From the IMG/VR virus record IMGVR_UViG_3300033153_007299, positions 1 through 23,898 of that record: DNA of 23,898 nt, one strand, 5' to 3'. Below the pieces are notes generated by a model, which had not been told where the DNA came from, did not search any database, and saw only the letters and a program-made list of their open reading frames with translations. The position numbers and the translations under genes were made by a program. Of this stretch, positions 3,357 to 20,625 are shown in pieces (position 1 is the stretch's first letter; every line of letters starts with the position of its first letter). This stretch comes from a virus.

Positions 3357-4055
3357 ATGAATCTGGAATATATAAAAAAAGTATCTGAAGATCCTGCTTT
3401 ACAGGATATGGAATGGTGGTCATGCCATGATGATCCTTATTATTTTCTAACAAATTGGGCATATACATTAGATGTACATGCGGTTTCGGATGTAATAAAA
3501 CCTTTTCCCAAGCGTGAATACCTTCGGATCATTGTTGATGTCTGGCTAAAGAATAATCTGTTATTGGTTCCTAAAAGCAGACAAATGATGATGAGTTGGT
3601 TGTTTACCAGTCTTTATTTATGGGATACCCAGTTCCATGAAGGGCGACTTACTTTTTTCCAAAGCAAGAAAGCTGATGATGCGGATGATCTTGTTAAACG
3701 GGCAAAGTTTGTGTTTGATCGGGAACCCTCGTTCTTGCGGCGATTCTATATAGATGGTCGTTTTTTTGATTTAAAAGTTAACCCTCAACACGGAGGACAA
3801 CATACCCAGGGGAAGTTGGTGTTTCCTGAAATTAATAGTGAGATTAGGGGGATACCTGAAGGTGGGGATATTATTAGGATGCATACGGCAAGCGGGATAT
3901 TATCTGATGAAATGGCATTTCAACCAGAAGCTGAAGATGCTTATACAGCTGCAAAGCCTACAATTTCATCTAAAGGCAGGTTTACTGGAGTATCAACAGC
4001 TGAAGATAATACTTTTTTTGAGGATTTGGTTTTTGATCAGATAGAAGTAGAATAA
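3357..4055 (+). CDS. terL: Terminase large subunit, ATPase part (split gene)
   Basis: A 232-residue protein equal to the N-terminal ATPase domain of a phage large terminase, the motor that drives DNA into the prohead. It shows an N-terminal adenine-binding region (DPYYFLTNWAYTLD then IKPFP, about 26-51), a Walker A variant (VPKSRQMMMSW, 71-81), Walker B with its catalytic acid (GILSDEMAF, 180-188) and the coupling motif (GVSTA, 211-215). The family is normally one chain of roughly 450-600 residues. Here an in-frame TAA at 4053-4055 ends the chain in the linker after the coupling motif, and the rest continues in the same frame from ATG 4059. Either two polypeptides assemble, or the stop is a mutation or sequencing error. 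Confidence 0.85.
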   Translation: MNLEYIKKVSEDPALQDMEWWSCHDDPYYFLTNWAYTLDVHAVSDVIKPFPKREYLRIIVDVWLKNNLLLVPKSRQMMMSWLFTSLYLWDTQFHEGRLTFFQSKKADDADDLVKRAKFVFDREPSFLRRFYIDGRFFDLKVNPQHGGQHTQGKLVFPEINSEIRGIPEGGDIIRMHTASGILSDEMAFQPEAEDAYTAAKPTISSKGRFTGVSTAEDNTFFEDLVFDQIEVE

Positions 4056-4058
4056 TTT

Positions 4059-5861
4059 ATGTATAGAGATATTAAAAAAGAAGAAATAATTAAGGGTGTT
4101 AAGTTATGGAAAAATATTGATAATAAGTTTACTGTTTTGATGTTGCATTATAGTGCTGATCCGGAAAAAACTAAGGAATGGGTTGATCGCGAAAAAGAAG
4201 GCACACCAAAAGCCACATGGGCGAAAGAATATGAGATTGATTTCACAACAAAGGCAGGGAAACTGATTTACGGGCCTGAGTTTTGTGATTTTGACGAGGA
4301 TATACATCTAGTGGATTGTAGTGTGCCTGAACCATATGAATTATGTATAGGTTTAGATTTTGGACAGTCTAATCCAACAGCTGCCGTTGTGGGGGCATGG
4401 ACGGCTGATGGGTCTATGTATATTATTGATGAATATTATAATCCGGCATTGCCGTCTGTTTCGTCACGTGAAATGTTTGAGAAGTTCAAATATCTTATGG
4501 GATATGATGATGAAGCTAGTTTTGCAACTAAAAAGGTATTGATAAATAAGACATTTTCAATTCGTGTAATAGACCCAAGCACTAAAAACAGAAACCGTTC
4601 TAAAGTACGTTTTGGTGAAGAAATCCAGTATAGTATTAAAGAAGAATTTGAAGATAACGGATGGGACTTTGAATTAGGGATTAATGATGTTCAGGCAGGA
4701 CTTACCCGTGTTCGTGAATATATGAGCGTAGTCGGCAAGAAAACAAAACTTTATATCCTAAAAGATAAGTGTCCTAATCTTATAAGGGAGCTTAAAAATT
4801 ATAGATACAAGACCCTTACAAAACAACGTGAAAAAACACATAACAATCCTGAGGAACCGATAAAGAAGAATGATCACGCTTGTCTTGTTGGTAATACAAA
4901 AATATTGATGTGGGATGGGTTAGAAAAACAGATAAAAGATATTAAAGTAGGGGATTTGGTAAAAACACAAAACGGTTCTGAAAAGGTTATTGATTGGGCA
5001 TTAATAAGGAAAAAGGCTGAAATTAATGAGGTTATTCTATCTAATGGATTCTCTTTAAAGGGAACTAAAGACCACAAGATATATACAAAAAAAGGAGTAA
5101 TGCCTATTGACACACTCAGATACGGTGACAATATAAGGGTATTGAATAATGAGTTAATATCTTTATGCAGAAATCAATTATCTTTAATAAAAAGAAATAT
5201 AACTGGGATGGTAAGTATTATAGCCCAGTCGGTGGATATAAAGACGGAAGAAGGCGATTACACCAAGCAATGTGGGAATTTCATAACGGACAAATACCAG
5301 ACGGATTTCATGTTCACCACATCAATAGATGTGCATGGGATAATAGAATCGACAATCTTCAACTTAAAGAAAGAGGTTCCCATTTATCGGAACATTCTAA
5401 AAAGTGCTGGTCGGATATTGAATATAGAAAAAGAGGGGAAGCAAATCTTGCAAGAATTAGACCGCTTACAAAAAAATGGCATAGATCTGTTGAAGGACTT
5501 GCGTGGCATAAAGAAAATGGGAAAAAATGCTGGATTAATAAACAAAAGCATAAAAGATTTTGTAATTGGTGCAAGAAAGAATATGAAACTTATTTCCCAA
5601 CTAGATCAAAATTTTGTCATCCGAATTGTAAGCAATCAGCCTTGCGGAAAAGAAGATGTCTACAACATAACAGTTGAAAATGAGCATAGATATTTTGCTA
5701 ATGGGATCTTGGTAAGAAATTGTGATGCTTTAAGGTATCTGTTAATGACCAGACCACCAGTAATTACAGCTACTCGAAAACCAAAAACAAGGATTCAAAA
5801 GGATATAGACAGTCTGTTGAAACCAAAAGCCAGGTTAGATAATTTGTGGGATATTGATTAA
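4059..5861 (+). CDS. terL: Terminase large subunit, nuclease part with intein
   Basis: A 600-residue precursor in the same frame as the ATPase ORF, starting 3 nt after its stop. Residues 1-95 are the end of the ATPase domain (LHYSADPEKTKEWVDREKEG; WAKEYEIDF). The RNase H-like nuclease follows: motif I GLDFG with Asp100, motif II region VIDPST with Asp172, and motif III KNDHA/CDALRY with Asp272 and Asp556. Motif III is interrupted by a 280-residue intein (residues 275-554). Splicing would leave 320 residues and join A274 to C555, rebuilding HACDALRY. Nuclease activity should thus depend on splicing. The ATG context (AATTTATG) matches other starts here, so independent translation by termination-reinitiation is credible. 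Confidence 0.88.
   Translation: MYRDIKKEEIIKGVKLWKNIDNKFTVLMLHYSADPEKTKEWVDREKEGTPKATWAKEYEIDFTTKAGKLIYGPEFCDFDEDIHLVDCSVPEPYELCIGLDFGQSNPTAAVVGAWTADGSMYIIDEYYNPALPSVSSREMFEKFKYLMGYDDEASFATKKVLINKTFSIRVIDPSTKNRNRSKVRFGEEIQYSIKEEFEDNGWDFELGINDVQAGLTRVREYMSVVGKKTKLYILKDKCPNLIRELKNYRYKTLTKQREKTHNNPEEPIKKNDHACLVGNTKILMWDGLEKQIKDIKVGDLVKTQNGSEKVIDWALIRKKAEINEVILSNGFSLKGTKDHKIYTKKGVMPIDTLRYGDNIRVLNNELISLCRNQLSLIKRNITGMVSIIAQSVDIKTEEGDYTKQCGNFITDKYQTDFMFTTSIDVHGIIESTIFNLKKEVPIYRNILKSAGRILNIEKEGKQILQELDRLQKNGIDLLKDLRGIKKMGKNAGLINKSIKDFVIGARKNMKLISQLDQNFVIRIVSNQPCGKEDVYNITVENEHRYFANGILVRNCDALRYLLMTRPPVITATRKPKTRIQKDIDSLLKPKARLDNLWDID
4881..5720 (+). mobile_element. Intein in terminase nuclease motif III
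   Basis: A 280-residue intein. Its N-terminal block starts with Cys1 (CLVGNTKILMWDGLEKQIKD), followed by KVGDLV and block B with TKDH (intein residues 62-65). Its C-terminal blocks are VYNITVENEHRYFANGILVRN, ending in Asn280 before a Cys +1 extein residue. The usual His before the last Asn is replaced by Arg (VRN), as in some active inteins. About 170 residues in the middle do not look like any endonuclease in this frame. The same DNA encodes a clear HNH endonuclease in another frame (5165-5677). Insertion in the most conserved active-site motif is typical of inteins, because it resists loss. Confidence 0.88.
5165..5677 (+). CDS. HNH homing endonuclease in an alternate frame inside the intein
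   Basis: A 170-residue protein in the +1-shifted frame relative to the terminase intein. It shows the HNH_3-type layout. First comes YYSPVGGYKDGRRRLHQAMW (19-37). Then comes the HNH core GFHVHHINRCAWDNRIDNLQ (47-66) with His51-His52, Asn60 and Asn64, then HLSEHSKK. The C-terminus has a four-Cys zinc knuckle (FCNWC at 132-136, FCHPNC at 150-155) and a basic end. It would cut intein-free terminase genes to spread the element. The frame stop at 5150-5152 means it is not a simple fusion to the N-terminal intein part. Its ATG sits in CTTTATG, a start context used by real genes here, so separate translation is plausible. Its stop lies inside the C-terminal intein block. Confidence 0.8.
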   Translation: MQKSIIFNKKKYNWDGKYYSPVGGYKDGRRRLHQAMWEFHNGQIPDGFHVHHINRCAWDNRIDNLQLKERGSHLSEHSKKCWSDIEYRKRGEANLARIRPLTKKWHRSVEGLAWHKENGKKCWINKQKHKRFCNWCKKEYETYFPTRSKFCHPNCKQSALRKRRCLQHNS

Positions 5862-5879: not shown

Positions 5880-6044
5880 ATGAGTGACGAAGCTAATCAA
5901 AAAAAAGTAAAAGAGTTCGAGGAGAAGCTAAATGCACTCCAACAAGAGTTTGGAGTAAATATTTATGCAGCCAACCAGATGCTTGAATCTGGAGAAATTG
6001 TTACATTAGTAAAATTTAGACTTTATGAAGATCAAACCAAGTAA
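5880..6044 (+). CDS. Small hypothetical protein, 54 aa
   Basis: A frame from ATG 5880 to TAA 6042-6044 encodes 54 residues. It has a charged N-terminal helix, probably coiled (ANQKKVKEFEEKLNALQQEF), and then NIYAANQMLESGEIVTLVKF. It starts 18 nt after the terminase stop and overlaps the GroES-like start by 20 nt, so it sits within one operon. The family is not recognised. Its position directly before the chaperonin genes hints at a link to head assembly, but nothing in the sequence shows this. Confidence 0.55.
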   Translation: MSDEANQKKVKEFEEKLNALQQEFGVNIYAANQMLESGEIVTLVKFRLYEDQTK

Positions 6045-6279
6045 AGGTATTCTAATTATCAAAAAACACAAAAATACTGCATATGAAACAGATATTATTG
6101 CTGTTGAAGAAGAAGATAAAAGATTAATTACCGGTGAAGTTGTTGCTGGGGAGGCTTATTCAGTTGGATCAACAGTTGTTTTCGGAAAATATGCACTATT
6201 TCCCTTGACTATTAAAGGAGAAGATTTCTTTTTCTTAGAGGAAAGAGATGTAATCGGAACTTGTGATTATAAAGAATAA
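6025..6279 (+). CDS. groES: Phage GroES-like co-chaperonin (Cpn10)
   Basis: An 84-residue Cpn10-like protein, slightly shorter than the usual 95-100. It starts with the family's first strand (MKIKPSKGILIIKKH). A divergent mobile-loop segment follows (TDIIAVEEEDKRLITGEVVA), in which IIAV stands where GroES has the GroEL-binding hydrophobic triplet. The end is the conserved beta barrel (VGSTVVFGKYALFPLTIKGE then FFFLEERDVIGT). GroES caps the GroEL ring and encloses folding substrates. The gene overlaps the upstream 54-residue gene and is followed 40 nt later by a GroEL gene, so the phage carries both halves of the machine. In known phages such co-chaperonins help fold capsid or other large proteins; that substrate is inferred here. 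The short loop region may set specificity for the phage GroEL. Confidence 0.8.
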   Translation: MKIKPSKGILIIKKHKNTAYETDIIAVEEEDKRLITGEVVAGEAYSVGSTVVFGKYALFPLTIKGEDFFFLEERDVIGTCDYKE

Positions 6280-6318
6280 TTAACAACCTTTCGGTTAATT
6301 TACTAATTAACAGCCATT

Positions 6319-7872
6319 ATGTATAAAAAAATCCTATTTGAAGAGGAGTGTGTAGAAAAAATAAAACGTGGGGTTAATACCGTAGCTGATGCGGTAGAAT
6401 CTACTCTGGGTCCACGCGGACAGAATGTTATTTTTGAAGAAGGTTTAATTCCAACAATTACAAAAGATGGAGTGACAGTAGCTAGGCAGATACTTTTAAA
6501 GGATAGATTTGAAAATATGGGCAATATGATTGTTCGTGAAGCTGCAGAAAATACAAACCGTGAAGCTGGCGATGGAACAACTACAACTATTGTTTTACTG
6601 CGTGAACTGTTTAATGAAGGAGTAAAAGCAGTTTCTTCAGGAATGAATCCTATCCTTATTAAACGAGGTATGGATGCTGCCCTAGAAGAGGTTCTCATAG
6701 AACTTGAAAGCCAGAAGAAGGAGATTAAGACAGACAAGGAGTGTGAATCAGTAGCAATTATCTCATCTAACAACGATAAAAAGATCGGCAGATTAATAGC
6801 TAGTGTTATTAAAGAGGTTGGAACAGACGGAGTAATAACAGTTACTACATCAAACAGCCTTAAAACAGATGTTGAGTATGTAAATGGAACAAAACTTAAT
6901 TCTGGATATGAATCACATTTATTTATTAATGATTCAAGAAACCTAAGTTGTTCGTTTGATGATCCTGTTATTATATTAAGTTCAGATAAACTAACTCTTG
7001 CATCACAAGTTATACCGATTATTGAAAAGTGTTTAAAAGACGGCAAAAGAAATATGGTTTTATTTGCTGACGAAATTGCACCACAAGTAATTGTATTTTT
7101 GGTACAGAATTATATGCAAGGCAAATTCGCATGTGTTCCTGTAAAAATTCCTTCATTCGGAGGATTTCAAACAGATTTAATTTATGATTTGGCAGCTTCA
7201 ATAGGGGCGACCGTATTAGGCGAAAATAAGCCCATAGAACAAGCGGAACTAGAAGATCTGGGTACTTGTGGGAGAATCGTTGTAGGACGCACAGAAACGA
7301 TTGTAGCCGGTGCTTTAGGTGATATAGAGGATCGTATAGAAGAAGCAAAGGCGTTATTGGAAACAGAAAAAGATACATTCAATATTGTTAAGTTAAAACA
7401 ACGAGTGGGCCGTTTAACTGGTAAGATTGCAAATATTAGTGTGGGTGGAGCTTCAGAAAGTGAGCAAACAGAAGTGCGGTATCGTATGGAAGATGCAATT
7501 AATGCTGTTAAATCTGCTATAGAGGAAGGTATTGTCCCAGGTGGTGGCGTAGCCCTTCTTAGATGTAGTGTTAAAGAAGAAGGCGGCGAAGAGTTTAACC
7601 GTGGCAAATCTATTGTAAGAAAGGTTCTTGATGCACCTCTTAGAAAGATAGTTAATAATAGCGGATTATCGGGCGAAGCTGTAGCTTCACGTGTACGTGA
7701 AACTGGTAGAGGATACAATGCACTAACTGGTGAATATTGTGATCTGATAAAGGAAGGGATAATTGATCCTAAAAAAGTGGTGCGTAATGAAATAACAAAT
7801 GCTGTAGCAACTGCTGGTATTCTTTTGACCAGTAGGGCAGCGATTACTATTAAAGAAGATATATGCAAGTAG
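6319..7872 (+). CDS. groEL: Phage-encoded GroEL-type chaperonin (Cpn60)
   Basis: A 517-residue group I chaperonin. The ATP site is intact: STLGPRGQNVIFEE (28-41), TKDG with Asp50, GDGTTTT (84-90), and the hydrolytic Asp of RMEDAINAV (Asp392, matching GroEL Asp398). EEGIVPGGGVALLR follows. The apical domain is present (ESHLFIND; QVIVFLVQNYMQGKFACVPV; FGGFQTDLIYDLAASIGATV). The last residues are ITIKEDICK, so the flexible Gly-Gly-Met tail of most bacterial GroELs is missing, and the protein is about 30 residues shorter than E. coli GroEL. With the adjacent GroES-like gene it should form a complete folding cage in the host cytoplasm. Its stop overlaps the next gene by 10 nt. Location among packaging and head genes fits a role in virion protein folding. 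A chance host gene is unlikely in this compact phage operon. Confidence 0.93.
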   Translation: MYKKILFEEECVEKIKRGVNTVADAVESTLGPRGQNVIFEEGLIPTITKDGVTVARQILLKDRFENMGNMIVREAAENTNREAGDGTTTTIVLLRELFNEGVKAVSSGMNPILIKRGMDAALEEVLIELESQKKEIKTDKECESVAIISSNNDKKIGRLIASVIKEVGTDGVITVTTSNSLKTDVEYVNGTKLNSGYESHLFINDSRNLSCSFDDPVIILSSDKLTLASQVIPIIEKCLKDGKRNMVLFADEIAPQVIVFLVQNYMQGKFACVPVKIPSFGGFQTDLIYDLAASIGATVLGENKPIEQAELEDLGTCGRIVVGRTETIVAGALGDIEDRIEEAKALLETEKDTFNIVKLKQRVGRLTGKIANISVGGASESEQTEVRYRMEDAINAVKSAIEEGIVPGGGVALLRCSVKEEGGEEFNRGKSIVRKVLDAPLRKIVNNSGLSGEAVASRVRETGRGYNALTGEYCDLIKEGIIDPKKVVRNEITNAVATAGILLTSRAAITIKEDICK

Positions 7873-15671: not shown

Positions 15672-15980
15672 ATGACACAGGAGGATCTCTTTAAAAAACT
15701 GATCGAAGTAACAGAAAAAAGAACTGTAAATGAAGAGATGAGTATTGTTTTTGCAAAATTAGATAAAGCATTGGCATTATTAACCCAAGAAGTCGGATAT
15801 ATTAGGAAAGCACTAGATGAAAATTTTGAAGCACATTCAATAAGACTTAATACCCTGGAAAAGCGTGTTAGTATTCTTGAAAACTGGAAGATAAAGCTTT
15901 TGGGAATTTGTATAGGTGTAAGTGCAACTGTTGGATTTATCTCGAAATGGATTTGGGATATCATTAAATCTAAGTTTTAA
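15672..15980 (+). CDS. XhlA-like coiled-coil membrane protein, 102 aa
   Basis: Residues 1-70 form a charged helical, coiled-coil region with heptad-like spacing (TQEDLFKKLIEVTEKRTVNE; LNTLEKRVSILENWKIK). They are followed by a single C-terminal membrane segment (LLGICIGVSATVGFISKWIW). This order, coiled coil then C-terminal anchor, resembles XhlA, which works with a holin in prophage lysis systems, and related phage membrane proteins. It starts 1 nt after the holin-like gene, so the two are coupled. The XhlA comparison is structural, not a proven homology. Confidence 0.6.
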   Translation: MTQEDLFKKLIEVTEKRTVNEEMSIVFAKLDKALALLTQEVGYIRKALDENFEAHSIRLNTLEKRVSILENWKIKLLGICIGVSATVGFISKWIWDIIKSKF

Positions 15981-15990
15981 TAGCATATAT

Positions 15991-18033
15991 ATGTTTTTCA
16001 AGCCGAAATTTGCAACAGGATGTGTGCCTGACACTATAGACGAAAGAGATCATATCTTTGACGGTCTTGGTGCTCCAAAAGTTGATTGGGAGCATGGATA
16101 TGACATAGAGCAAGAGTTAGGATATCAGATCCCTATAAAGGATCAGAACGGATCTTCTTCGTGTGTAGGGCAAGGTGTTGCTTATTATGTAGGTGTATTA
16201 AATGCTGTTGAGATGGGGATGTATAAAGAAGTATCCGCAAAAGCGATTTATAGTCAGATTTATTTACCACAAGGTGGAGCATATATTCGGGATGCCATGA
16301 AACTGGCTGTTAATTGGGGATCTTTATATGAGTATATTGTTTCTTCTTATATAGGGGATAAAGCTCCAAATGAGAAGTTCATGAGAAAAATTGCTTGGAA
16401 AAATGAATCATATAATCCTAAAGTGCTACAGGCTAAAGAATATCGTGTTATACAGGCACGTGATGATATGGATATGTTTGCTGGTGCTATTATGGCTAAC
16501 CACGGTGTTGTAGGGGGCGTATACGGTGATAATGATAGCGGATGGGATACAGGTGAACCACAACCACCTAAAACAAAGAAATGGGCCCATTGTTTTCTAG
16601 CTAATCAAAAGGTTTTAACAAGTGATGGATATAAAAATATTCAAGACATCACTGTTGGCAACTTTGTTTTAACTCATAAAAACAGGTTTAAAAGAGTGGT
16701 TAAAATTGGAAACAAAGAATACTCCGGCAACATTTGTAAAATAAGCACCTGTAGTTCTATAGATGATATTATTGCAACAGAAGAACATCCTTTTTATTGT
16801 ATGTTTGTTGGTAAAAAACATATTAGTGAGGTTTTAGAAGAAGACAAGCAAGAATATCAGTTTCTAAAACTTAGTGAAATCATTAGAACGGATAATAAAA
16901 GGATGTTATACGACAATCTTTTTATAGAAGGTATTTTGCCTGAAAAACAAAACAGTATTAGTGAAAATATTGCTTTTTTGTTAGGAGTATTTATCGGTGA
17001 CGGAAATCTTGCAGGACGAAAAAGAAAAGATGGGACAGTGAATTATAAAGCAATCAGGTTTATAATTGGAATTAATAAGCGAAATGGAAAGTTACGTGAG
17101 AAGGTTATTTCTTTAATGGAAAAAGAGTTTGGATTATTGCCGCGTTTTTATAATCCAAAAGGAGCAAATTGTGAACAAATTATTTTTTATAGTAAAAAAA
17201 TAGCTGATTTCTTTTTGGCGTATTGCGGAAAACCTAGAAACAAAAAGATTCATTCAGATATTCTTTTGAGTAAAAAAAGTGTTTTGAAAGAATTTGCAGA
17301 AGGCTGGTTTATGACGGATGGCTGCTTGGTTGAAAGTCAAAATAAAAAGATGATTTCTACATCTTCTAAAGATTTGGCATATTCTTTATCGGTAGTTTTA
17401 AATAAGTTGGGATATGCTTTTTCAGTACAACAAAGACCAGAAGGAAAAACAGTTATTCAAGATAGGATAGTTTTCTGTAAAGAAAGTTGGCATTTTAGTT
17501 ATAGAGAATATAGCAAGAGAACACAAAGCTGGTTTCATAATGGATATAAATTAGTAAGACCTAAAAAAATAGAAACAACTTTTTTTGAGGGAACTGTTTA
17601 TAATTTTGAAGTAGAAGAAGATAACAGTTATACTGTTGGAAATTTAATTGTTCATAATTGTCTCTTCTATGGAGCATTTGGTACAGATTCTATAGGTAGA
17701 TATATTTCGACACCTAATAGTTGGGGTGGTAGTGAATGGCAGAAACTGCGGGCTAATTATTTTACACAAGCCTTCCAGTTCAATCCGTGGACATTAGTTG
17801 ATAAACCGAACCCTTTGACTGAGGGACAAACGATTATAAAGGAATATGAAAAGAAGGTTATAATAGAAGGAGAAGGAAAAGGTCGTAAAGGAATTATAAT
17901 TAATGGTAAGTTTTTAGAGATTAAAAAAGATAGAGTTGGAGAAGCTTGTTTGTATGCTCTTGCGAATAATGGGTTTGGAGTAACTGTATCAACTGAAACA
18001 ATAGATGAATTAATTAAAGGAGATATTTTTTAA
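15991..18033 (+). CDS. Papain-like (C1) cysteine peptidase with LAGLIDADG intein
   Basis: A 680-residue precursor; splicing would give 324 residues. I start at ATG 15991 (MFFKPKFATGCVPDTIDERD), because the longer frame from 15922 reads back through the previous gene. C1 peptidase landmarks: oxyanion Gln52 and nucleophile Cys58 in KDQNGSSSCVGQGVAYY (50-66), catalytic His200 in KKWAH, and Asn576 in PNSWGG (NSWGG motif). The intein (201-556) begins directly after His200 and ends before CLFYGAFGTD. The short end domain has a region rich in Lys and Gly (EYEKKVIIEGEGKGRKGIII). There is no signal peptide. Placed after two holin-like genes, it may be a lysis peptidase or a virion-borne peptidase; both are inferences. 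Activity should require splicing. Confidence 0.85.
   Translation: MFFKPKFATGCVPDTIDERDHIFDGLGAPKVDWEHGYDIEQELGYQIPIKDQNGSSSCVGQGVAYYVGVLNAVEMGMYKEVSAKAIYSQIYLPQGGAYIRDAMKLAVNWGSLYEYIVSSYIGDKAPNEKFMRKIAWKNESYNPKVLQAKEYRVIQARDDMDMFAGAIMANHGVVGGVYGDNDSGWDTGEPQPPKTKKWAHCFLANQKVLTSDGYKNIQDITVGNFVLTHKNRFKRVVKIGNKEYSGNICKISTCSSIDDIIATEEHPFYCMFVGKKHISEVLEEDKQEYQFLKLSEIIRTDNKRMLYDNLFIEGILPEKQNSISENIAFLLGVFIGDGNLAGRKRKDGTVNYKAIRFIIGINKRNGKLREKVISLMEKEFGLLPRFYNPKGANCEQIIFYSKKIADFFLAYCGKPRNKKIHSDILLSKKSVLKEFAEGWFMTDGCLVESQNKKMISTSSKDLAYSLSVVLNKLGYAFSVQQRPEGKTVIQDRIVFCKESWHFSYREYSKRTQSWFHNGYKLVRPKKIETTFFEGTVYNFEVEEDNSYTVGNLIVHNCLFYGAFGTDSIGRYISTPNSWGGSEWQKLRANYFTQAFQFNPWTLVDKPNPLTEGQTIIKEYEKKVIIEGEGKGRKGIIINGKFLEIKKDRVGEACLYALANNGFGVTVSTETIDELIKGDIF
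16591..17658 (+). mobile_element. Intein with LAGLIDADG homing endonuclease
   Basis: A 356-residue intein. It opens with Cys1 (CFLANQKVLTSDGYKNIQDI), has KxxVGxxV, and block B with EEHP (His66). Two LAGLIDADG motifs follow: LLGVFIGDGN (130-139) and FAEGWFMTDG (235-244), which place the catalytic acids. The C-terminal blocks are VYNFEVEEDNSYTVGNLIVHN with the canonical His-Asn, then Cys +1. All parts are intact, so it should splice and home. It is a different intein type from the one in the terminase. It sits between the catalytic His and the next Cys of the peptidase. Confidence 0.9.
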
Positions 18034-18921: not shown

Positions 18922-19503
18922 ATGCCAAAAGGAATACCAAAAAATGGTATAAACAAGGGATGGTTTAAAAAAGGAAAAGCAGGTTGGAATAAAGACAAAA
19001 AAGGATTACAAAAGGCATGGAACAAAGGATTAAAAATGTCTAAAGCATCAAGGGAAAGAAATAGACAGGTTCATTTAGGCAAAAAAGCTTCTGCTGAAAC
19101 TAGAGAAAAGATGAGTTTAGCTCATATCGGCAACTGTTATTCAAAGGGGTATAAGCATACAAAAGAAGCTAAAAGAAAAATATCTTTAAGTTCTAAGGCA
19201 AATCAAAATGCAAATTGGAAGGGTGGTATAACACCAGAACTTCAAAAAATTAGGGGTACTTCTGCTTATAAACAATGGAGATTAGCAGTTTATTCTAAAG
19301 ACCATTATTCTTGTCAAAAATGTAACAAAAAAGGTGGAACATTAAATGCACACCATATTGAAAATTTTTCAAGCAATACATTACAAAGATTTAATATTAA
19401 CAATGGTATTGCTTTATGCGAAGGGTGTCATAAAAAATTCCATAAAAAGTATGGTATAAAAAATAATACCTTAGAACAGGTGTTAGAGTATTTAAAAAAT
19501 TAA
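18922..19503 (+). CDS. NUMOD3/HNH homing endonuclease
   Basis: A 193-residue freestanding endonuclease. The first 70 residues hold repeated basic motifs with Trp and Lys-Gly (GIPKNGINKGWFKKGKAGW; KAWNKGLKMSKASRER). Two NUMOD3-type DNA-binding motifs follow (ETREKMSLAHIGN, about 60-72; TKEAKRKISLSSK, about 80-92). The HNH core is at the end: SCQKCNKKGGTLNAHHIENF (His-His pair), then NGIALCEGCHKKFHKKYG with the last Cys pair for zinc. It would cut a specific site near its own location and copy itself. No introns are visible around it. It separates the glycosyltransferase-like gene from the tail-fibre-like gene. Confidence 0.85.
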   Translation: MPKGIPKNGINKGWFKKGKAGWNKDKKGLQKAWNKGLKMSKASRERNRQVHLGKKASAETREKMSLAHIGNCYSKGYKHTKEAKRKISLSSKANQNANWKGGITPELQKIRGTSAYKQWRLAVYSKDHYSCQKCNKKGGTLNAHHIENFSSNTLQRFNINNGIALCEGCHKKFHKKYGIKNNTLEQVLEYLKN

Positions 19504-20021: not shown

Positions 20022-20046
20022 AGATACAAATAATTAATTTGTGTCT

Positions 20047-20625
20047 ATGGAAACTAAAACGTGTGCTTATTGCAAAAAGACCTTTGAAAAAGGAGCTATC
20101 ATGGGGAAGAGGTGGGAAAGAAAAAAGTATTGTAATTTTGATTGTTACAATAACTATCGAAAAGAATTTCAACCACGTAAAGGAATCAAGTTTTCTGAGG
20201 AAGTAAAAAAAAATATGAGTCGTGGACAAATGGGAAAATATCTTGGCCCACATTCTGAAGAACACAAACGAAAGATAAGCGAAGCTCAAAAGGGTGAGAA
20301 AGGGCATTGGTTTGGCAAAAAACATGATGAAGAAACGAAAGCTAAAATGAGTGCAAGTGCAAATAGAAAGTATGGTGAGGATAATATAAACTGGAAAGGT
20401 GACGAAATTAAATGTGGAGGTATCCATCATTGGCTAACACGTGAATACGGGCAACCACAGCGGTGTGATAACCCCAAATGTCCATATAAGAACATCAAGC
20501 GGTATGATTGGGCTAACGTCCACGGACACGTCTATGAGCGTGATAGGGCACATTTCATCAGGCTTTGTAGAGGGTGTCATTTAAAATATGATAAACATGA
20601 ATTAACAATAAAAACGTATGAGTAA
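20047..20625 (+). CDS. Zinc-finger NUMOD3 HNH-type endonuclease
   Basis: A 192-residue protein; I take ATG 20047 over the GTG at 20041. The N-terminus has a zinc-finger pattern (CAYCKKTFEKG then KYCNFDCYN, about 6-40). Two NUMOD3-like motifs follow (SEEVKKNMSRGQMGKYLGP; SEEHKRKISEAQKGEKGHWF; DEETKAKMSASA). The C-terminal part has a Cys/His-rich nuclease-like region (RCDNPKCPYKNIKRYDWANV; HGHVYERDRAHFIRLCRGCH). The usual HH of HNH is less clear than in the gene at 18922, so the catalytic class is less certain. It has its own promoter and follows a hairpin, as expected for a mobile gene. Its end overlaps the methyltransferase by 8 nt. Confidence 0.75.
   Translation: METKTCAYCKKTFEKGAIMGKRWERKKYCNFDCYNNYRKEFQPRKGIKFSEEVKKNMSRGQMGKYLGPHSEEHKRKISEAQKGEKGHWFGKKHDEETKAKMSASANRKYGEDNINWKGDEIKCGGIHHWLTREYGQPQRCDNPKCPYKNIKRYDWANVHGHVYERDRAHFIRLCRGCHLKYDKHELTIKTYE

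Follow-up and report, generated by a model that had tools for sequence, protein, structure and literature searches.

How can a homing endonuclease inhabit an intein without being joined to it in one polypeptide? This question is posed by the gene for the large terminase subunit (TerL) in the IMG/VR virus record IMGVR_UViG_3300033153_007299, of which we analysed the 23,898 bases from position 1 to 23,898 (hereafter the window). The nuclease half of this TerL is interrupted by an intein, and the DNA of the intein also contains, in a different frame, an open reading frame (ORF) for an HNH endonuclease. An earlier note, made from the letters of the window, had drawn attention to this arrangement and supposed that both frames are kept. 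In our analysis the locus is very probably a mobile intein that has its homing endonuclease overprinted on it, not fused to it.

The identification of the out-of-frame ORF as an HNH gene with a four-cysteine zinc knuckle and an HHIN core, already made in the earlier note, is confirmed by its match to Pfam HNH_3 (Table 1). In an alignment of 25 relatives the cysteines C133, C136, C151 and C155 are invariant together with the HH...N...H core, including H51, H52, N60, H73 and other residues of the catalytic motif; the knuckle sequence KFCHPNC served also as a retrieval pattern for relatives. AlphaFold folds the HNH frame confidently, with a mean predicted local distance difference test (pLDDT) score of 93.5. 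Among solved proteins, the best sequence relative of this HNH is I-HmuI, a homing enzyme (1u3e; profile match with an expectation value (E) of 1e-3), and a Foldseek search with the HNH model gave no significant match. The gene lies in codon phase 2 (modulo 3), and the enclosing TerL/intein ORF, which is open throughout, in phase 0; the intein frame is the HNH frame plus one base, and the third frame holds 26 stops across the HNH gene. The last 35 bases of the gene (from 5643) also encode the start of the C-terminal splicing half of the intein and overlap block F, and in this dual-coding stretch near the HNH 3' end some bases carry two functional proteins.

The intein is inserted immediately 5' of the conserved D-A-L-R-Y in the nuclease half of TerL. 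The class 1 intein residues Cys1, T62..H65 (TxxH), Asn280 and Cys+1 are present in the window, and among relatives Cys1, TxxH and Asn are invariant. Over the 132 clusters of loci described below, Cys1, the C-terminal Asn and a Cys or Ser at +1 are each found in 132/132, the +1 residue being Cys in 104 and Ser in 28. In the AlphaFold model of the intein frame, residues 1-90 and the last 20-25 are confident, with pLDDT above 90 at most residues of the splicing halves, and residues 103-240 fall mostly at 24-44; the model matches the gp41-1 intein (6qaz; Foldseek E 1.7e-7, target template-modelling score 0.88). In the window the N- and C-terminal halves lie on one continuous ORF, not on separate ORFs as in split inteins. 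The window intein is predicted to splice itself out of TerL.

Following the checks proposed in the earlier note, we made two kinds of search in IMG/VR, one with the HNH protein as the only query and the other with profiles of TerL inteins, and both retrieved loci of the nested form. Each scan comprises its 80 best-ranked loci, the ranking profiles covering the overlap at least in part, so that any 'always' holds for the retrieved set. The HNH query yielded 44 loci and the intein profiles many more; in about 40 of the 44 the same +1 frame is open across the whole match and extends to an ORF of about 575-1426 amino acids, contig-end fragments aside. The exceptions are L014, open only locally, and L007, L008 and L043, where the HNH gene lies outside any intein. 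Continuous TerL inteins with an HNH gene were found at 298 loci, with the HNH gene in the identical phase in 298/298, one base from the frame of the splicing blocks, and in frame with them, as in canonical inteins, in 0. These loci form 132 divergent clusters, the window's included, whose guanine-plus-cytosine (GC) content spans 26-62% and whose inteins have a median length of 273 amino acids, and they support the view of the earlier note that two overlapping frames encode an intein and a separate HNH protein. Among isolates the nested arrangement occurs in Rhodobacteraceae phage LS06-2018-MD07, Acinetobacter phage Highwayman and Tetrasphaera phage TJE1, whose records annotate TerL alone across the HNH gene, so that annotation hides it. 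HNH-query scans of named genomes returned no relatives. One nested locus (L041, 363-4640) is a single TerL ORF of 1426 amino acids with apparently three inteins, the last of which carries the out-of-frame HNH.

The two frames differ sharply in what is conserved. Over the overlap, amino acid identity in the HNH frame exceeds that in the intein frame in 377/378 pairs, and differences at HNH codon positions 1, 2 and 3 number 20886, 18896 and 28128, respectively. The ratio of nonsynonymous to synonymous substitution rates (dN/dS), whose measurement in both frames had been proposed, is 0.11-0.33 for the HNH frame in most resolvable pairs and about 0.6-1.5 for the intein frame over the overlap, by the Nei-Gojobori method, which is biased in overlapping frames, so that the contrast counts and not the values. 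As judged by these comparisons the HNH frame is under selection as a protein. What is preserved of the intein frame over HNH is mostly the absence of stops, and the sequence of this frame behaves as a disordered linker that echoes the HNH codons; by inspection, the glycines conserved in the linker seem to arise where HNH tryptophan codons are read with a shift of one base. The supposition that both frames are kept thus stands for HNH as a protein, and for the overlapping part of the intein frame it shrinks, on identity, dN/dS and the AlphaFold model, mostly to the absence of stops.

The earlier note had judged the openness of the intein frame through HNH to be unlikely by chance, and the calculations agree. 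In random DNA of the window's composition 170 open codons have P = 8e-7; with the HNH protein fixed and the codon usage of the window an open frame has P = 0.0002 (mean 5.8 stops), and when the HNH gene's own codons are shuffled P = 0.008. Keeping the +1 frame open is inherently less demanding than keeping the third frame open, so that a single locus is suggestive only. Across 123 clusters, codon shuffles predict 291 intein-frame stops inside HNH and 0 are observed, whereas in the third frame 2345 are expected and 2461 observed. Stops in the +1 frame arise only from NTA followed by A or G, or from NTG followed by A. In the HNH genes, the base after a Leu, Ile or Val codon ending in A is C or T in 525 cases and A or G in 0; after Met codons it is C, G or T in 284 cases and A in 0. 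The codon choice of HNH thus tracks the first base of the next codon, which only the requirement of the other frame would impose.

We propose that this DNA specifies two products. One would be TerL interrupted by a minimal class 1 intein, in which about 120 residues serve splicing and the loop is a long linker devoid of meaning. The other would be a separate HNH endonuclease, translated from the frame one base earlier and probably initiated at an internal ATG. This enzyme would cut intein-free terL where the conserved D-A-x-R-Y motif is encoded, and the intein plus its hidden HNH gene would be copied into the cut terL during repair. As TerL is essential, stops would be forbidden in its frame, and the HNH gene would accommodate that frame by avoiding NTA before A or G and NTG before A.

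Consistent with mobility independent of the host gene, 34 cluster pairs have extein identity <0.40 yet HNH identity >0.65, and the converse was found in 0. The terL exteins are mostly saturated at synonymous sites; the intein and HNH are not. For example, between L016 and L023 the synonymous divergence (dS) is 1.4 in the extein against 0.41 in the splicing (Hint) domain and 0.74 in HNH, and between L032 and L041 identity is 0.36 in the extein against 0.71 in HNH. By these measures intein and HNH are passed on jointly, even between TerL genes whose identity is as low as 36%, and the nested HNH probably spreads the intein segment. In decayed copies TerL stays intact: in L036 the HNH gene has a nonsense codon and the intein frame is still open; at the TerL site L160 and L321 (2324-2813) have mini-inteins of 151 and 163 amino acids with short HNH remnants in the same out-of-frame phase; and loss of the intein frame is seen only alongside apparently functional split halves. 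TerL evidently survives the loss of HNH. Free-standing copies of the HNH gene occur beside or close to terL in PAE1, FBPa53, SN1, Shemara, BP10 and Poludnitsa. A comparison of Acinetobacter BP10 with Highwayman as a clean empty site was unusable, their TerLs being only 27% identical. In L007 (also L008) the HNH gene lies 3' of terL, with the terL 3' end repeated beyond it; the direct repeats, at 3823-3942 and 4495-4614 in L007, are 672 base pairs apart, and the layout looks as if HNH had homed into terL.

Besides the bias of the dN/dS values and the restriction to retrieved loci, both given above, three observations weigh against a mobile intein of this kind. The penultimate residue of the window intein is Arg and not the customary His, which is present in 120/132 clusters, the others having Ser, Lys or Ala; a penultimate His is common in inteins and not universal, and we do not take its replacement as disqualifying. 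No Shine-Dalgarno motif was found 5' of the HNH ATG in the window, nor at many HNH starts of relatives. Finally, almost every nested cluster retains an intact HNH, which is unusual for a purely selfish endonuclease, so that another benefit is possible.

This last observation would be expected if HNH were mainly a DNA-packaging cofactor of terminase, like HK97 gp74, and merely encoded inside the intein. The HNH of HK97 works with terminase, and cofactor and homing roles may be compatible (PMC10448857); the present HNH family, moreover, is tied to TerL in all its forms: inside the intein, between the halves of a split intein, and free-standing next to terL. A role as cofactor instead of homing enzyme is nonetheless unlikely, as intein and HNH move jointly between divergent TerLs, many phages have a TerL without HNH, the best solved relative is a homing enzyme, and in L007 HNH sits next to a duplicate of the terL 3' end, as would follow from homing into terL.

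The scarcity of Shine-Dalgarno motifs bears on a different alternative, in which HNH is made by programmed -1 frameshifting from the TerL/intein frame, as a fusion of the N-terminal Hint half with HNH, and not by internal initiation. This has a somewhat smaller probability than the preceding alternative: only 4 codons separate the upstream stop from the HNH ATG in the window (an open frame of 174 codons for 170 amino acids), the distance is <=5 codons in 59/132 clusters, and in several families an aligned ATG precedes the conserved N-terminus. Other gene starts in the window are likewise A/T-rich and mostly without a Shine-Dalgarno motif. The earlier note had argued for a start in HNH from the context CTTTATG, said to be used by other genes; the gene starting at 6025 has the same context, but most starts in the window differ and the argument is weak. 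Internal initiation at its own ATG is the simplest reading of how HNH would be translated.

The note had also offered an ancestral in-frame HNH displaced by two compensating frameshifts in the window copy, or assembly errors to the same effect, which would accord with the usual in-frame position of intein endonucleases. This is very improbable and, for the window copy, refuted, since the searches retrieved no in-frame homologue, and all 132 divergent clusters and the three isolates share one phase; furthermore, the intein frame has no HNH-like conservation except the echo. An ancient double shift may have preceded the radiation of the family. Least credible of all is that the intein frame is open by chance because HNH proteins are poor in Leu, Ile, Val and Met and so yield few +1 stops, which is true of the GC-rich free-standing L092 and L093 but is refuted for the family by the codon-aware nulls, both in AT-rich cases and family-wide, and by the HNH sub-family of Lactobacillus phage CL2, where four nested forms have 0 such stops, split-intein forms 7-11 and free-standing forms 6-13.

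The split forms suggest a further step in the history of the overprinted intein. A split TerL intein is found in Lactobacillus phage CL2 (L095, 1967-2771; L330 is near-identical), in L331 and in L334/L335, with a TerL/N-intein ORF that ends in a stop, then HNH, and then the C-intein with D-A-x-R-Y on another ORF; in L334 the ATG of the C-part is preceded by GGAGG. In some relatives the intein/HNH pair appears to have become a naturally split intein. If a stop arose in the freely evolving linker frame, TerL would survive only where the intein halves act in trans, and such trans-acting halves would give the order N-intein/HNH/C-intein seen in CL2 and two more divergent lineages. In a tree of 73 HNHs the nested, split and free states are mixed, with at least 9 changes, well below shuffled labels; the direction is not readable from it. 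That overprinted HNH inteins form a distinct, widespread class of mobile elements and a source of natural split inteins is a tentative suggestion, which we hold with less than even confidence. TerL also looks interrupted in Exiguobacterium phage vB_EauM-23 (L094, 2051-3400), where it ends in NNHSMAA and a stop, followed by an HNH of the family and then by CDATRYAMEM in another frame, with no Rfam intron match. In L045 (1700-3500) an apparent ribonucleotide reductase gene has intein halves on separate ORFs with a GIY-YIG-like ORF between them, the host gene and the endonuclease being recognized by eye.

Table 1. Features of the terL region of the window; residue numbers are those of the intein or of the HNH protein.
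Feature	Positions	Strand	Evidence
TerL N-terminal (ATPase) ORF	3357..4055	+	PHROG terminase large subunit, E 1.3e-8; in-frame TAA terminates the ORF at 4053-4055
TerL C-terminal (nuclease) ORF with intein	4059..5861	+	PHROG terminase large subunit, E 1.8e-14; Terminase_3C, E 5e-5
Exteins of the TerL nuclease ORF	4059-4880 and 5721-5861	+	
Intein, 280 amino acids, Cys1 ... Arg-Asn / Cys+1	4881..5720	+	PF14890, E 1.5e-9; TIGR intein C-terminal model (intein_Cterm), E 6e-6
N-terminal splicing half	4881..5150	+	Cys1; block B T-K-D-H (Thr62, His65); AlphaFold pLDDT 83-97, residues 1-90
HNH endonuclease gene, 170 amino acids, ATG...TAA	5165..5677	+	Pfam HNH_3 (PF13392), E 2.7e-13; PHROG HNH, 2.5e-17
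Intein-frame linker, residues 103-240, overlapping the HNH gene	5187..5600	+	stop-free; mean pLDDT mostly 24-44
HNH_3 core, HH...N...H	5255..5368	+	Pfam residues 31-68; invariant columns
C-terminal zinc knuckle C-x2-C ... KFCHPNC, family signature	5561..5629	+	invariant in alignment
C-terminal splicing half, blocks F and G	5643..5720	+	pLDDT 93-94, residues 261-280

The TerL of the window consists of two successive ORFs that share one frame, and an in-frame TAA followed by TTT ATG (4053-4058) separates its ATPase and nuclease halves, unlike the nested relatives examined, in which TerL is uninterrupted. Genes for GroES (PHROG E 3e-7) and GroEL (E 7e-135) lie directly 3' of terL at 6025-7872. 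A second intein, at 15922-18033, has an in-frame LAGLIDADG endonuclease; its exteins resemble a papain-type peptidase by eye and have no Pfam match. Two ORFs with NUMOD3, at 18922-19503 (also Pfam HNH) and 20041-20625, add to the inteins, so that the window holds several elements of homing type. Rfam gave no match to a group I intron in the window.

The nested arrangement is a long, deeply conserved overlap of genes on the same strand, with an internal control for stop avoidance and with one frame evidently constrained for little beyond staying open. Of known systems, I-HmuI shares the HNH core with the window protein; the zinc-knuckle C-terminus differs, and the carrier is an intein, not a group I intron. 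The nearest published case is the ShiLan domain (PMC11855218), in which an HNH lies out of frame in a phage methylase and has no splicing domain around it. Both have an HNH hidden out of frame in an insertion that is open in the frame of the host gene, and both have a disjunct, homing-like distribution. Insertions of the ShiLan type, however, lack the splicing blocks of an intein and are presumed to be retained in the protein, whereas in the window HNH is surrounded by the full set of splicing blocks, in a bona fide intein from which TerL would be restorable. The mycobacteriophage TerL inteins reported in 2016 are located in the ATPase domain and contain recognizable endonuclease domains (PMC5050341). 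Such canonical inteins share with the window the class 1 Hint residues, a conserved site in an essential gene and an endonuclease gene within the intein; they differ in that the endonuclease is fused in frame and does not occupy a separate overlapping frame, and the mycobacteriophage inteins are all in the ATPase domain, the window intein in the nuclease domain. A literature search, outside which a 2025 preprint on non-canonical intein architecture (10.1101/2025.01.02.630785) remained, found no description of an intein with an out-of-frame endonuclease. The window intein would exemplify a way for an endonuclease to inhabit an intein without fusion.

Finally, Dassa et al. in 2009, as cited in PMC10448857, reportedly described fractured genes, with split inteins and intervening endonuclease genes. 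Part of the window's HNH family has the same position, between the halves of a TerL intein (L095/L330, L331 and L334). Fractured genes are split, whereas the form in the window is continuous and overlapping, and a plausible path leads from it to split inteins, major tools of biotechnology.
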